The notes: generated by a model not told the origin, from the letters alone. Numbered from the stretch's first letter, positions 14,848 to 18,992 are shown. The stretch: 38,353 bases of DNA from Rhodothermus sp. (GCA_015487635.1 WFPM01000169.1:1-38353); one strand, 5' to 3'. A program made the numbers and translations.

Positions 14848-15281
14848 GGCGTGCGTCGCGTTCGATGCCGGAAGGCAATCCAAAGATACCGGCAGGCTCC
14901 CCCTCCCGCAACCTGCCCCCGGAAAATTGTTGCCCCGAACGGGGCGTCGAGGTAAACGTGTACCTGTTTGCAGTAAACCCAAACCAGGAAGCGAAGCAAC
15001 GTTCTATTTTCTCTGGACGTATGAATGGAACATCTCCCGAATTATGATCGAAGTGGCGCTTTTCTTTGGGAACACGGAGCGCATCTCAGGGACGACACTT
15101 TTCCGCTTCTGCGTCCGTGCATCCCATGTTGGACAGTTTTGAATGGTAGCGGGCTATTTTTCAGCGTGTTGTGCAGTTTTTGAATTTTATCATTTTTTAA
15201 CAATTCGGATATTGACTTGTTTTTTTTGAATTTAAAATGTAATTGCAAAATGCACCCCTTAGACCTTAAACAAGGTGAATT
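14848..15281. other. Divergent intergenic region with a very AT-rich segment
   Basis: These 434 bases separate recJ from the Cys-rich peptide/propeller locus. The left part carries the recJ promoter. The right part (about 15141-15250) is sharply AT-rich for this genome: in 15181-15240 only 11 of 60 bases are G or C. It contains TTGACT at 15212-15217 with TAAAAT at 15233-15238 (15-base spacer) or TGTAAT at 15238-15243 (20-base spacer), so a promoter for the plus-strand locus probably lies here, but the exact elements are not certain. No gene is supported. Confidence 0.5.
14883..14911 (-). promoter_or_regulatory. Candidate sigma70-type promoter of recJ
   Basis: On the minus strand TTGCGG (14906-14911) and TATCTT (14883-14888) are spaced by 17 bases, about 35 bases before the recJ ATG. 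It supports the shorter recJ start. The -35 is weak and the -10 is moderate. Confidence 0.45.
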
Positions 15282-15515
15282 ATGCGACGCGAGGTCTTCC
15301 TACTGGCCTTTTCAGCTGCTTTGCTGGTGATTGCTTTACTGTTGCCCGCTCCACAGACGCAAGGACATCCTTTCTGTGAGCACGACGTTTGTCAGACAGA
15401 AGAATCGTCACGTACCGGAGAGCTGCGGGGTATCTGTTTACACCGGAATTACTATGCAACCAATTGTATCATGAACGGATCACTCTGCAACATGGAAAAC
15501 TGTGAGCCCGAATAA
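15282..15515 (+). CDS. Small exported six-cysteine peptide A
   Basis: A 77-residue peptide with no family I recognise. M-R-R-E precedes a hydrophobic segment (6-22) that looks like a signal peptide or single membrane anchor. The mature part has six cysteines at 32, 37, 52, 62, 69 and 74 and is otherwise polar. A good Shine-Dalgarno (AAGGTG) lies about 6 bases before the ATG. The motif C-E-H-D-V-C (32-37) matches C-E-Y-D-R-C in the next gene, and the cysteine spacing is nearly the same, so the two are paralogs. Six cysteines suggest three disulfides or a metal site outside the cytoplasm. It is followed after 18 bases by the second peptide. Confidence 0.75.
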   Translation: MRREVFLLAFSAALLVIALLLPAPQTQGHPFCEHDVCQTEESSRTGELRGICLHRNYYATNCIMNGSLCNMENCEPE

Positions 15516-15533
15516 GTTAATCCGTAGGAAGCC

Positions 15534-15740
15534 ATGAAAAGAGCAGGCATTATTGTACTCATTGCACTCCTATGGTTTATCATTGGCTTATTGATGCCCC
15601 GGTTTGCAACGCAGGCTTTACATTGTGAGTACGATAGATGCGTGGGAGCCTATTGCGTGGATTCCGAGAAACCCACCGGCTGTGACGCGACGATGGTAGA
15701 AGGATGTCGCACCTATGATTGTGAGGTGGTGGTCGAATAG
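15534..15740 (+). CDS. Small exported six-cysteine peptide B
   Basis: A 68-residue paralog of the peptide just upstream. M-K-R is followed by a hydrophobic segment (4-21), then a polar tail with cysteines at 31, 36, 41, 50, 58 and 63. The shared plan with peptide A is C-x4-C, a variable loop, then C-x(8-9)-C-x(6-7)-C-x4-C, and the first pair is C-E-x-D-x-C in both. A TAGGA ribosome-binding site lies before the ATG. Its last 26 bases overlap the start of the first propeller lipoprotein, so the genes are probably co-translated. Role unknown; an exported disulfide peptide served or sensed by the neighbouring propeller proteins is possible. Confidence 0.75.
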   Translation: MKRAGIIVLIALLWFIIGLLMPRFATQALHCEYDRCVGAYCVDSEKPTGCDATMVEGCRTYDCEVVVE

Positions 15741-17013
15741 CACAGGCGTGATCGCGCTTCTATGGACTGGTTTACTGGGGGGGTGTAAGGGAGGTCTGCA
15801 GGATCCTGGAAAGGGACAGCACTGGCATCCGGATCCTGCACGGCTGCCTTCACCGGAAGCTTTTGACTGGGTTATCACTGCACAGGACAGTACCGATCCG
15901 GTGCTGCACACATGGGCAGCACGACTGCGGCAGGCGCAACTGCGATGGGAGCGGGGCGCATGGCTTTCGGAAGACCGGTATAGCATGTTTGGAAGGGTGT
16001 GGGATGTGGTGGTGGATGGAGAAGGCCGGGTGGTGGTGCTGGACTTTGAAAATCAGGAAATCCGTGTGTATGACCAACGAGGAAGTTTTGAGACATTGGT
16101 GGGGCATCAAGGTGAAGGTCCGGGCGAGTACATTCAGGCGGGAAGATTGCTGATAGGAGAAAATGATTCTCTGTACGTTTATGATTATTCACGTTCCCTG
16201 TTTGTCATATACCGTCGTCATGAATCAGGATATACGTTTGAGCGCATATTAGATCTGCCGGACGGCGCCTCTTCCTTGGATTATGCCTGTCTTCATTCAG
16301 AAGGATACATCGTAACTCAGAAATCATCGCGCCTCCGAGAAGATCCTTTATTTTACAAAATTGACTTTTCTTCCTCTGTAATAGAAAGCTTTGGAACACA
16401 CAGGCATTATCACACCGAGGAAGATGAAGGATTTCTGCATGACCAGATCAACAGGGCTTACGTACTGTGTGGGCAGGGAGTCGTCGCAGTTTATTTGTTT
16501 TACCCGATCGTCGACTACTTTTCAGGAAATAGAAGATATAGCTTTTTCCTTAAGGAAGTAAATCTTCAACCGTTTCTTCTGATAGATAATAGGATTGCGG
16601 AATATTTGAATACAGATAGATTTATTGAAAAAACATCTTACACAGGATGGGTAGATCAGTTAGAGGAGCCTGTTCTTTTGAAAGAAGATCTCCTGTTTTA
16701 CAACTTCGTTCGGTACGAGGCCAGAAATGGAGAAATCATCAACCGATATCCCATGGCGTATCTGCTGGATTTGCCTCGACGTAAGGCGCTGTTGTTAAAT
16801 CTGGAAGCATATCCTTTTGCTGCGCTGGCGGCCGTGCGGGACTCGGTGCTTGTCGGGTTTCGCTGGGATTTCTACCGGGAAGAAATTCCACACATCGCCT
16901 ATTATGTACTTCCCTCGCAATCGTCCGGCAAGGAGGCTTATGAGTCGCCTGATAACCGGGCTTATCCTGGCTCTATGGCTAACGGGATGCCGGCAAACAG
17001 AGTCTCCCGATGA
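15715..17013 (+). CDS. Six-bladed beta-propeller lipoprotein 1
   Basis: A 432-residue predicted lipoprotein. The N-terminus has a hydrophobic segment ending L-L-G-G-C (lipobox, Cys near residue 24). The body has repeats of a propeller: D-V-V-V-D-G-E-G-R-V-V-V-L-D, I-R-V-Y-D-Q-R-G and G-H-Q-G-E-G-P-G-E-Y; the G-x-G-x-G-P-G-E-[FY] signature is common in NHL/TolB-like six-bladed propellers of Bacteroidota. It is paralogous to the next gene (both begin the mature part with a P-S-P...F-D-W-V stretch). Its coding sequence is unusually AT-rich (41 of 120 bases are G or C in 16561-16680). The last 74 bases overlap the next gene in another frame. Likely sits in a membrane facing the periplasm or outside; ligand unknown. 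Confidence 0.8.
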   Translation: MIVRWWSNSTGVIALLWTGLLGGCKGGLQDPGKGQHWHPDPARLPSPEAFDWVITAQDSTDPVLHTWAARLRQAQLRWERGAWLSEDRYSMFGRVWDVVVDGEGRVVVLDFENQEIRVYDQRGSFETLVGHQGEGPGEYIQAGRLLIGENDSLYVYDYSRSLFVIYRRHESGYTFERILDLPDGASSLDYACLHSEGYIVTQKSSRLREDPLFYKIDFSSSVIESFGTHRHYHTEEDEGFLHDQINRAYVLCGQGVVAVYLFYPIVDYFSGNRRYSFFLKEVNLQPFLLIDNRIAEYLNTDRFIEKTSYTGWVDQLEEPVLLKEDLLFYNFVRYEARNGEIINRYPMAYLLDLPRRKALLLNLEAYPFAALAAVRDSVLVGFRWDFYREEIPHIAYYVLPSQSSGKEAYESPDNRAYPGSMANGMPANRVSR

Positions 17014-18106
17014 GCTCTATCCGAGCCCGGATCGGCTTCAGGGGCCGTTTGATTGGGTGTTGGCGCCTGAACCGGCGCACCAGGGCATCCCTGGCGATCT
17101 AGCGGCCGTGCCGGCGCTTACACAGGCAGAAGTGCTTCGGATAATCGGCGGCTCTGAAGGGCAAACGCCGGACTACTTTCTGGGGCGGGTTGTGTATGCC
17201 ACGTTTGATCCGGAAGGCCAACTGGTGGTCGTCGATCAGGGCAACGGAGAGGTCCGCTTTTTCGATCGGGAAGGTCGTTTTTTGTTCAAGATCGGTCGGA
17301 AGGGGATGGGACCGGGTGAGTTTGACCAGCCCGCTTATGTCGCCTTTGACAGCAGGGGCTGGCTGTACGTGCTGGAAGAAGGTCGGGCGCGCCTGCATCG
17401 CTTCCGGCCGGAAGGGGCAGGTTTTGCGCTGGTGCAGACGTATAACCTGCACTCCCAGCTGCAGGCGAGTCCTCTTGGATGGTGTTTGCTGGCAGATACC
17501 CTGTATGTGTATACCAGTGCGGTGCAAGAGCACCCGCTATTCCATGTGTTGACGCTGGACGGCGTGGTGGTCCGCACTTTTGGGAAGCAGGACGTTTATC
17601 CGCCGGAGGCGTTGCCCAAAGGCTTTGCCCCCTTTTTCCTGGAAGCCCGGTTGTACTGCGATCCCTACGGGTCCGGGCTCATGCTGGCCTATCGATACCT
17701 GCCGGTTCTGGAGTATTACACTACCAGTGGAAATCGTCGGTGGCGGGTGCGGATCGACGGGGCGCCCATTGTAGCGTATCGGAGTGTAGCGGAGGGACGT
17801 TTGCAGCCGGCATTGCGGGCACAGGGATATCGCCTACGCAATCTATGGACACTGCCTTCGGGTAGGGTGCTTATCCATCTGGTGTATCAGGCGCAGCGGT
17901 CGGAGCGTCCCCTTGCTGCCGAGACGATTGCCACATACGTGTTCTGGCTGGATCCTGTGCAGAGGCAATGGGGCTGGCAGAAGGTAACTTTTCCGTTTTT
18001 CCGCCTGTATGCCTGGCAGGGGCGCTATGCGGTGGGAATAAGCCCCGAATCCGAGTTGCCTCACGTCGCCCTGTTTCGCATTCCAGAAACTACGGAAGGC
18101 ACTTGA
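16940..18106 (+). CDS. Six-bladed beta-propeller lipoprotein 2
   Basis: A 388-residue lipoprotein. The start at 16940 is fixed by a perfect AGGAGG at 16931-16936 and by the signal peptide that follows directly (M-S-R-L-I-T-G-L-I-L-A-L-W-L-T-G-C), ending in a lipobox. Propeller strands include Y-A-T-F-D-P-E-G-Q-L-V-V-V-D, V-R-F-F-D-R-E-G-R-F and G-R-K-G-M-G-P-G-E-F, the same signature as propeller 1. The coding sequence has ordinary high G+C, unlike its paralog. It starts inside the end of propeller 1 and is followed 3 bases later by the thioredoxin-fold gene. Function unknown; propellers of this kind bind peptides, sugars or partner proteins. Confidence 0.85.
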   Translation: MSRLITGLILALWLTGCRQTESPDELYPSPDRLQGPFDWVLAPEPAHQGIPGDLAAVPALTQAEVLRIIGGSEGQTPDYFLGRVVYATFDPEGQLVVVDQGNGEVRFFDREGRFLFKIGRKGMGPGEFDQPAYVAFDSRGWLYVLEEGRARLHRFRPEGAGFALVQTYNLHSQLQASPLGWCLLADTLYVYTSAVQEHPLFHVLTLDGVVVRTFGKQDVYPPEALPKGFAPFFLEARLYCDPYGSGLMLAYRYLPVLEYYTTSGNRRWRVRIDGAPIVAYRSVAEGRLQPALRAQGYRLRNLWTLPSGRVLIHLVYQAQRSERPLAAETIATYVFWLDPVQRQWGWQKVTFPFFRLYAWQGRYAVGISPESELPHVALFRIPETTEGT

Positions 18107-18109
18107 TGC

Positions 18110-18652
18110 ATGAAAAGTATGCGGGATGGCCTGTTGCTACTCAGCGGGCTTTTACTAGGGCTGGCAGCTCCGCTCTACTATCAGAAGCTGAGCCCGGATC
18201 CCTGGCGGCTCCTGGCAGATACCGGGCGGAGAACCCTTGTGCTGGTATACATCGGTTCGCCAACGTGCGGCCCCTCCAATGATCCCCGGTTACCTTCCTT
18301 GATGGAGGCCGTGCGCACGCGCCTTTCTGCAGCAGCAGTGGCGCAGGGGATTGCTTTTCGAGTGGTGGGGATTGCCATCAGCCGTGACGTGCGGAGTGGC
18401 CTAGATCATCTGGAGAAGGTGGGGCCTTTTCACGAGATAGCTGCAGGAGCACGCTGGCACAATCTGGCCATGCGGTATGTGCAGGAGGTGGCTCCAGGCT
18501 TAGAGGCTACCCCGCAGCTGATTTTGCTGGATTGGCGTCCGGATTCCGTTCGCCCACTCCTTCGATGGATCGGCGTAGATAAAATGGAGCGGTGGGTAGA
18601 AGCCGGCATGCCGCTTCCACGTCTGGACGACATGGCCGCTCAATCCCAGTGA
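18110..18652 (+). CDS. Membrane-anchored thioredoxin-fold protein with a CGPS site
   Basis: A 180-residue protein with an N-terminal hydrophobic anchor or signal (7-23) and a thioredoxin-like domain. The first strand and active-site turn read L-V-L-V-Y-I-G-S-P-T-C53-G-P-S56, that is CxxS instead of CxxC, and the cis-Pro loop is A-T-P-Q-L-I-L. G-P-F-H-E-I near 103-108 and R-W-H-N-L further on look like a conserved patch of a family I have seen only as hypothetical in Gemmatimonadota/Rhodothermota-type genomes (recollection, not checked). A lone Cys could form mixed disulfides or isomerise, but not oxidise by itself. It closes the peptide/propeller operon, so the Cys-rich peptides are attractive partners. 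Confidence 0.75.
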   Translation: MKSMRDGLLLLSGLLLGLAAPLYYQKLSPDPWRLLADTGRRTLVLVYIGSPTCGPSNDPRLPSLMEAVRTRLSAAAVAQGIAFRVVGIAISRDVRSGLDHLEKVGPFHEIAAGARWHNLAMRYVQEVAPGLEATPQLILLDWRPDSVRPLLRWIGVDKMERWVEAGMPLPRLDDMAAQSQ

Positions 18653-18669
18653 AGACAGACCACCTGCTT

Positions 18670-18686
18670 CCTTTCTGGCGGAAAGG
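18670..18686. terminator. Candidate hairpin after the peptide/propeller operon
   Basis: A perfect inverted repeat CCTTTC-TGGCG-GAAAGG lies 17 bases after the stop of the thioredoxin-fold gene and just after the end of the opposing sorting-domain fragment. It could serve both strands, but there is no T tract on either side. Confidence 0.35.
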
Positions 18687-18687
18687 T

Positions 18688-18992
18688 TCAGGCCAGGCGC
18701 GTCAGCGTCCGGACCTGCACGCCCGATTCGGTTTCGAGGCGGACCAGATAGGTGCCGGCCGCCAGGTGAGCGCCGTCGAAGGTAAACCGGTAGGTGCCGG
18801 CCGGCCGGACGCCTTCGACAAGCCGGGCCACTTTGCGGCCGAGCAGGTCGTAGACGGCCAGCCGTACACGTTGCATTCGGTCCAGCGCGAATGTGGGCGT
18901 CGTGGTGAACCGGAACGGGTTCGGGGGCCGGCCTGCAGGGCCACGGCGGCCGGGATCGTCCGGGCGTCATGCGCCAGTGCCGTCAGTAGCAA
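18688..18992 (-). pseudogene. Orphan type IX secretion (Por) C-terminal sorting domain, frameshifted remnant
   Basis: Reading the minus strand from 18966 to 18688 gives a near-complete type A sorting domain: N-P-F-R-F-T-T-T, then L-A-V-Y-D-L-L-G-R-K-V, then A-G-T-Y-R-F-T-F-D and L-A-A-G-T-Y-L-V-R-L. Its frame closes upstream at a stop at 18967-18969. A second frame (TTG at 18992) reads ...I-P-A-A-V-A-L-Q-A-G-P, which is just what normally precedes N-P-F in such proteins. One extra base in the five-C run at 18923-18927 (minus strand) would join the two. Even joined, only about 100 residues remain and no catalytic or binding domain precedes it, so it is a remnant of a secreted protein cut down by deletion. 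A sequencing error in the run is an alternative for the frameshift only. Confidence 0.7.

Follow-up and report, generated by a model that had tools for sequence, protein, structure and literature searches.

A recurring cassette of six-cysteine peptides, DUF5128 propellers and a thioredoxin-fold protein in Rhodothermia

Exported peptides of the NVEALA family (PF14055), encoded right before six-bladed propeller lipoproteins of the TolB_like family (PF15869) and arranged in tandem copies, provide the closest described layout to the locus considered here. To our knowledge the NVEALA–propeller layout has no known function, and we know of none assigned to the DUF5128 (PF17170) propellers. The locus lies in a 38,353-nucleotide stretch of DNA from Rhodothermus sp. 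(GCA_015487635.1 WFPM01000169.1:1-38353), referred to below as the window, and comprises two genes for six-cysteine peptides, two for DUF5128 propellers and one for an anchored thioredoxin-fold protein, here termed the helper. No description of this cassette, of NVEALA or of the layout was found in the literature searched. The five genes are all on the + strand, and their coordinates are positions in the whole window:

15282..15515, +, pepA: 77 residues, predicted to be Sec-exported, six cysteines (32, 37, 52, 62, 69, 74), C-terminus CEPE
15534..15740, +, pepB: 68 residues, predicted to be Sec-exported, six cysteines (31, 36, 41, 50, 58, 63)
15715..17013, +, propeller 1: 432-residue predicted DUF5128 lipoprotein, lipobox Cys24, pair Cys192/Cys252
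16940..18106, +, propeller 2: 388-residue predicted DUF5128 lipoprotein, lipobox Cys17, pair Cys182/Cys240
18110..18652, +, thioredoxin-fold helper: 180 residues, helix 2-26, Cys53 in CGPSN, conserved TPQ loop

Layout and relation to known systems

Little space separates the genes: pepA and pepB are 18 nt apart, pepB overlaps propeller 1 by 26 nt, the two propellers overlap by 74 nt, and a gap of 3 nt precedes the helper. Propeller 2 begins as a lipoprotein at the ATG at 16940; a longer open reading frame (ORF) from a TTG at 16817 is not the lipoprotein start. Each peptide has six cysteines, each propeller three (the lipobox residue and two others) and the helper one. A first-pass annotation of this DNA had described five packed genes of these kinds, among them two paralogous exported Cys-rich peptides. 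Both points hold, as all five ORFs are present and a single profile, in which four cysteines are invariant and the other two nearly so, covers pepA (E 2.2e-22) and pepB. In pepB a signal peptidase I site is likely just ahead of LHCEYD, and the AlphaFold2 (AF2) model of this peptide consists of two hairpins, with a predicted local distance difference test score (pLDDT) of 87.8. A fold search of the model against the PDB found no match (best E 2.8), and comparison of the peptides with known families found none either.

The likeness to NVEALA loci that the annotation had drawn proves apt for the layout. In the Bacteroidia-type genomes G424 and G504, NVEALA peptides are encoded directly upstream of TolB_like or DUF5128 propellers, in the same order as in the window. 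At two G504 loci (L158 8496-9365 and L159 6804-7667) the gene after an NVEALA–TolB_like pair encodes a lipoprotein that combines a thioredoxin-like domain (CTSC) with DUF1573, reproducing the order peptide, propeller, thioredoxin fold. The parts themselves differ, however. The Rhodothermia peptides have six cysteines rather than a few, and the PF14055 profile matched neither the window peptides nor 42 relatives, nor anything in the genomes of the class, the window genome included; membership of the NVEALA family was rejected on this ground, in agreement with the annotation. The Rhodothermia propellers match DUF5128 and not TolB_like. Pfam gathering cut-offs are 22.9 bits for PF17170 and 29.2 bits for PF15869; both window propellers exceed the former (42.2 and 32.8 bits), whilst propeller 1 falls under the latter (11.7 bits) and propeller 2 was not listed for it. 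The thioredoxin-like protein of the Bacteroidia loci, a lipoprotein, has a CxxC site and DUF1573, whereas its Rhodothermia counterpart is a short anchored CxxS protein, and a comparison of the two profiles was weak (E 0.002-0.003, probability 11%). On sequence grounds the cassette is a new variant of the NVEALA–propeller layout, its peptides being non-homologous to NVEALA by the tests used and its thioredoxin family a different one.

The AlphaFold model of the helper, obtained with 35 relatives, has a thioredoxin fold (pLDDT 91.7) behind a membrane helix, and the best PDB structures by fold include DsbE/TlpA/ResA, tryparedoxin and Sco (Sco1) proteins. Fold, membrane anchor and extracytoplasmic side are thus shared with TlpA, ResA and DsbE. 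The helper nevertheless differs from these proteins in its lack of a resolving cysteine, its active site being CGPS with the lone Cys53 instead of the CxxC required of TlpA and ResA, and in its near restriction to Rhodothermia; sequence and profile searches gave the family no Pfam match and no meaningful PDB match. The family keeps the nucleophilic cysteine and the cis-proline loop (TPQ in most members). Most cassette helpers have Ser or Ala at the resolving position, where free-standing relatives have Cys, and from the motif onward in a 35-row alignment all 16 CxxS members have one cysteine and all 11 CxxC members two. The helper is thus a monothiol (CxxS/A) protein in most cassettes. A thioredoxin fold with a CxxS site also characterises the isomerases or holdases ERp44 and AGR2; these are eukaryotic endoplasmic reticulum proteins, and no homology is claimed apart from the fold, with mechanism transferable by analogy only. 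According to a review of eukaryotic work, CxxS sites isomerise, neither oxidise nor reduce, and hold their clients longer (PMC12384036). The single cysteine of the helper also departs from the CxxxC of Sco-type copper chaperones. Assignment to a defence system was rejected, a PADLOC search having returned no hit.

Recurrence, matched pairs and block exchange

Profile searches of 245 Rhodothermia genomes (peptide threshold E below 2e-5) returned 44 strong peptide matches, from 18 genomes; 52 genomes had a thioredoxin-fold match. Downstream of 35 of the 44 peptides, on the same strand and within 4.5 kb, lies a helper gene. Of the other nine, six are on five contigs with an adjacent propeller and C162 carries a decayed cassette; the G030 peptide is upstream of a second, decayed helper copy, and the G197:C98 match (1641-1880) is an orphan, convergent to a helper gene and with no propeller of its own. 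The peptides thus recur beside propeller and helper genes elsewhere, and the candidate system of the first-pass annotation survives this comparison. Among 60 genomes, the window genome and its relatives, the helper gene is present in 20, most copies adjoining peptides and propellers. A wider survey, of 392 genomes across the phylum, added a single helper relative from beyond the class, a free-standing gene that adjoins no propeller, and the helper family is nearly confined to Rhodothermia.

The association of small Cys-rich ORFs with propellers exceeds chance. With one fixed filter throughout (an exported small ORF with at least four mature cysteines preceding the gene), 43 of the 73 propellers in cassettes scored positive, as did 6 of the 14 elsewhere, but among 286 genes of other kinds only 5 did (Fisher p 3e-30 and 1e-6). 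Since propellers outside the cassette are also preceded by such ORFs, the pairing of peptide and propeller is wider than the three-part cassette. The window genome has 14 DUF5128 matches, and its propellers at C115, C193, C40 and C152 adjoin exported Cys-rich peptides with other cysteine plans and PE endings. Paralogous exported peptides with seven mature cysteines and the ending GGPE were observed at two of these places (L021 6555-6836 on C115 and L022 6179-6469 on C193), where they overlap other DUF5128 propellers and no helper gene is present; they form a second family of propeller-associated peptides. When all ORFs within 5.5 kb of a helper (approximately 63 loci) were clustered, no further family, MacB/FtsX-type permeases and an ABC ATPase included, occurred at more than seven loci. 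No recurrent exporter, protease, regulator or DsbB-like protein emerged from this clustering, in which MauE and DsbB profiles were not searched directly. In the absence of any other recurring family the cassette is regarded as three-part.

Cassette propellers are distinguished from the other propellers compared by an extra pair of cysteines. Besides the lipobox, an alignment of 66 cassette propellers has two columns, with Cys in 62 and 63 sequences, that correspond to Cys192 and Cys252 of propeller 1; in sequence both come shortly before an LYV-type strand, which suggests that they sit at equivalent places in neighbouring blades. Both cysteines occur together in 62 of the 66, and none of 15 propellers from outside peptide-bearing cassettes has the pair (Fisher p approximately 4e-11 with two borderline loci counted against the association, a statistic that ignores shared ancestry). 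Those two loci, C162 and L122, are the only ones with the pair among the 17 propellers classed as non-cassette. Both propellers follow peptides of the cassette family, the helper being decayed or not found there, and the pair therefore follows the cassette.

Peptides and propellers also appear to be matched. Propellers 1 and 2 each have a fully supported clade of their own, peptides A and B likewise fall into distinct groups, and the same loci group together in the two trees; the reduced C162 locus retains pepB with propeller 1. At the syntenic locus G003:C4/G006:C256, nucleotide identity is 0.8-0.9 in the flanks, 0.7-0.8 in the peptide leader and 0.7-0.9 in the helper, but only 0.35-0.7 across the mature peptide and the propeller. 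Synonymous divergence (dS) is 2.1 for the peptide and 2.08 for the propeller, approximately threefold that of the helper (0.49) and of the better-matched flanking genes (0.56-0.89). Because the dS of peptide and propeller lies so far above that of helper and flanks, the simplest account of the sequences is that mature peptide and propeller were replaced as one block by recombination. The ratio of nonsynonymous to synonymous substitution (dN/dS) for peptides was 0.11-0.39 in seven of eight estimable pairs, with synonymous sites near saturation in some; the lowest value applies to pepA and its G004 relative (0.11). In the eighth pair the ratio was 1.27 for the peptide, 0.36 for its propeller and 0.27 for its helper. 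Most peptide pairs are, judging from these ratios, under purifying selection.

The cassette is multi-copy, accessory and often decayed. Genome G004 has the most copies, with six cassettes. The window genome has further copies at C162 and C233, the former reduced to a pepA tail, pepB, one propeller and a thioredoxin remnant with GGPSN for CGPSN. At L060 (G003:C7) both peptides are lost and the helper is frameshifted, with both propeller frames still open. A tandem array near a cassette (L085 3631-3830 and L141 4946-5704) is expanded in one of the close strains G193 and G194.

A proposed maturation route and its rivals

The reading we favour, at a probability of about one half, is that the cassette builds a disulfide-stabilised complex of peptide and propeller outside the cytoplasm, the helper serving as an isomerase or a holdase. 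The peptide would be exported by Sec, cut by signal peptidase I and folded, giving a small mini-protein of two hairpins held by three disulfides; the propeller would be lipidated, and the cell's general oxidase would introduce the disulfides. The anchored CxxS helper would then form transient mixed disulfides with the peptide, the propeller pair or both, shuffling them to the native state; alternatively, it would hold its client until cognate peptide and propeller dock. Peptide and propeller would thus be a matched pair and the helper generic. Export, lipidation, anchoring and the missing resolving cysteine are predicted from sequence and structural models; binding, clients, any surface location and the final role of the complex we infer. 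An isomerase or holdase is proposed because of the monothiol site, the thiol:disulfide-type fold and the cassette-linked propeller cysteines, and the conserved pair and monothiol site lend indirect support to a role in maturation. Whilst the neighbourhood and the NVEALA-like layout of the first-pass annotation stand, the maturation, display or signalling function which it proposed stays hypothetical, and for display and signalling the lipoprotein and signal sequences are all that can be adduced.

Several observations weigh against this reading. The monothiol state is not universal, since approximately one in six of the cassette helpers whose motif can be read has CxxC. At C162, L073 and L106 intact peptides are kept beside a broken helper, for which reason the helper may be dispensable or supplied in trans. 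The cassette propellers of L107, L120 and L123 lack the cysteine pair despite an adjacent helper, and shared descent can explain part of the link between pair and cassette, as cassette propellers are related to each other. Finally, the evidence for exchange as a unit is one locus pair, and a second genus shows vertical inheritance of the cassette with no such swap.

That peptide and propeller vary jointly suggests a part in recognition or competition and not a housekeeping role. It is tempting to extend this, albeit tentatively and with more doubt than confidence, to an undescribed Rhodothermia recognition or conflict system in which hypervariable peptides, each with its own cognate propeller, would be exchanged as blocks between strains and a dedicated monothiol isomerase of thioredoxin fold would serve all variants. 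A rival reading, unlikely in our estimation, makes the peptide a bacteriocin antagonising close relatives, with the propeller lipoprotein protecting the producer and the helper aiding peptide folding. A small, secreted, disulfide-rich peptide would fit, as would the joint exchange of peptide and propeller with leader, helper and flanks retained, the multi-copy, accessory and frequently decayed state of the cassette, and the pair in which the peptide ratio of 1.27 exceeds those of propeller and helper. However, no dedicated exporter or lysis gene recurs at the approximately 63 loci, 390-430 residues is large for an immunity protein, and there is no PADLOC match, nor do the peptides match known families. 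Less likely still is a ligand–receptor scheme, in which the propeller would be the receptor of a peptide serving as extracellular signal or adhesive ligand. Paralogous matched pairs (A/B with 1/2) could then form separate channels, one genome holds as many as six cassettes and a lipoprotein receptor is plausible, but no regulator, sensor kinase, sigma or anti-sigma gene recurs nearby.

Two enzymatic or metal-based schemes fare worse. Sco1 is among the fold matches of the helper and acidic residues are conserved in the peptide motif CExDxC, which would accord with a redox or metal module having a Sco1-like helper and metal carried by the peptide and the propeller pair. Sco proteins use CxxxC plus His, however, and with a single cysteine in the helper and no recurring metal transporter or oxidase gene such a module is improbable. 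The mau operon likewise combines a disulfide-rich small subunit, a propeller large subunit and a thioredoxin-like MauD-type helper, three kinds of part resembling those of the cassette. Yet a methylamine-dehydrogenase-type enzyme with the peptide as small and the propeller as large subunit is hardly to be expected, given propellers that are six-bladed by family, peptides with no conserved Trp pair or catalytic residue beyond cysteines and acidic residues, and no further recurring enzyme-maturation or electron-carrier family.

Loci combining an exported peptide and a six-bladed propeller thus occur in tandem in Bacteroidia and also in Rhodothermia, with no role found. The cassette adds to these a partner with a thioredoxin fold and cysteines whose occurrence follows it, along with one case of block exchange. 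The propeller cysteine pair, the monothiol helper of most cassettes and the joint divergence of peptide and propeller are new, and the helper, with no Pfam match, and the peptide, whose model has no PDB match, are new families to name.

Insertion site of the window copy

The chromosomal surroundings of cassettes vary from copy to copy. In the window the cassette occupies an insertion with recJ on one side and, on the other, a gene remnant with a tail of the type IX secretion system (T9SS) type:

14918..18687, no strand, approximate extent of the insertion

At this site the congeners G003, G004 and G006 have only a few hundred bases where the window carries an insertion of 3.8 kb, and G+C is 44-61% within the insertion against mostly 65-70% around it. 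As sister species lack it here and the G+C content drops, the cassette is regarded as accessory and was probably acquired. No transposase or integrase was seen at the ends of the window insertion, and no plasmid match was found for the cassette. At the same site L125 and L126 (the congeners G005 and G002) carry instead two unrelated genes, for a glycosyltransferase-like protein and an LpxH-like metallophosphoesterase, so that the interval from recJ to the T9SS tail may be a hotspot that receives insertions of various kinds. The tail itself (18688-18990, - strand) is the short end of a gene for a T9SS-type sorted protein. In G002 and G005 approximately 4.3 kb more lies between the homologous tail and the next conserved block, for which reason the window tail is probably the remnant of a deleted gene.

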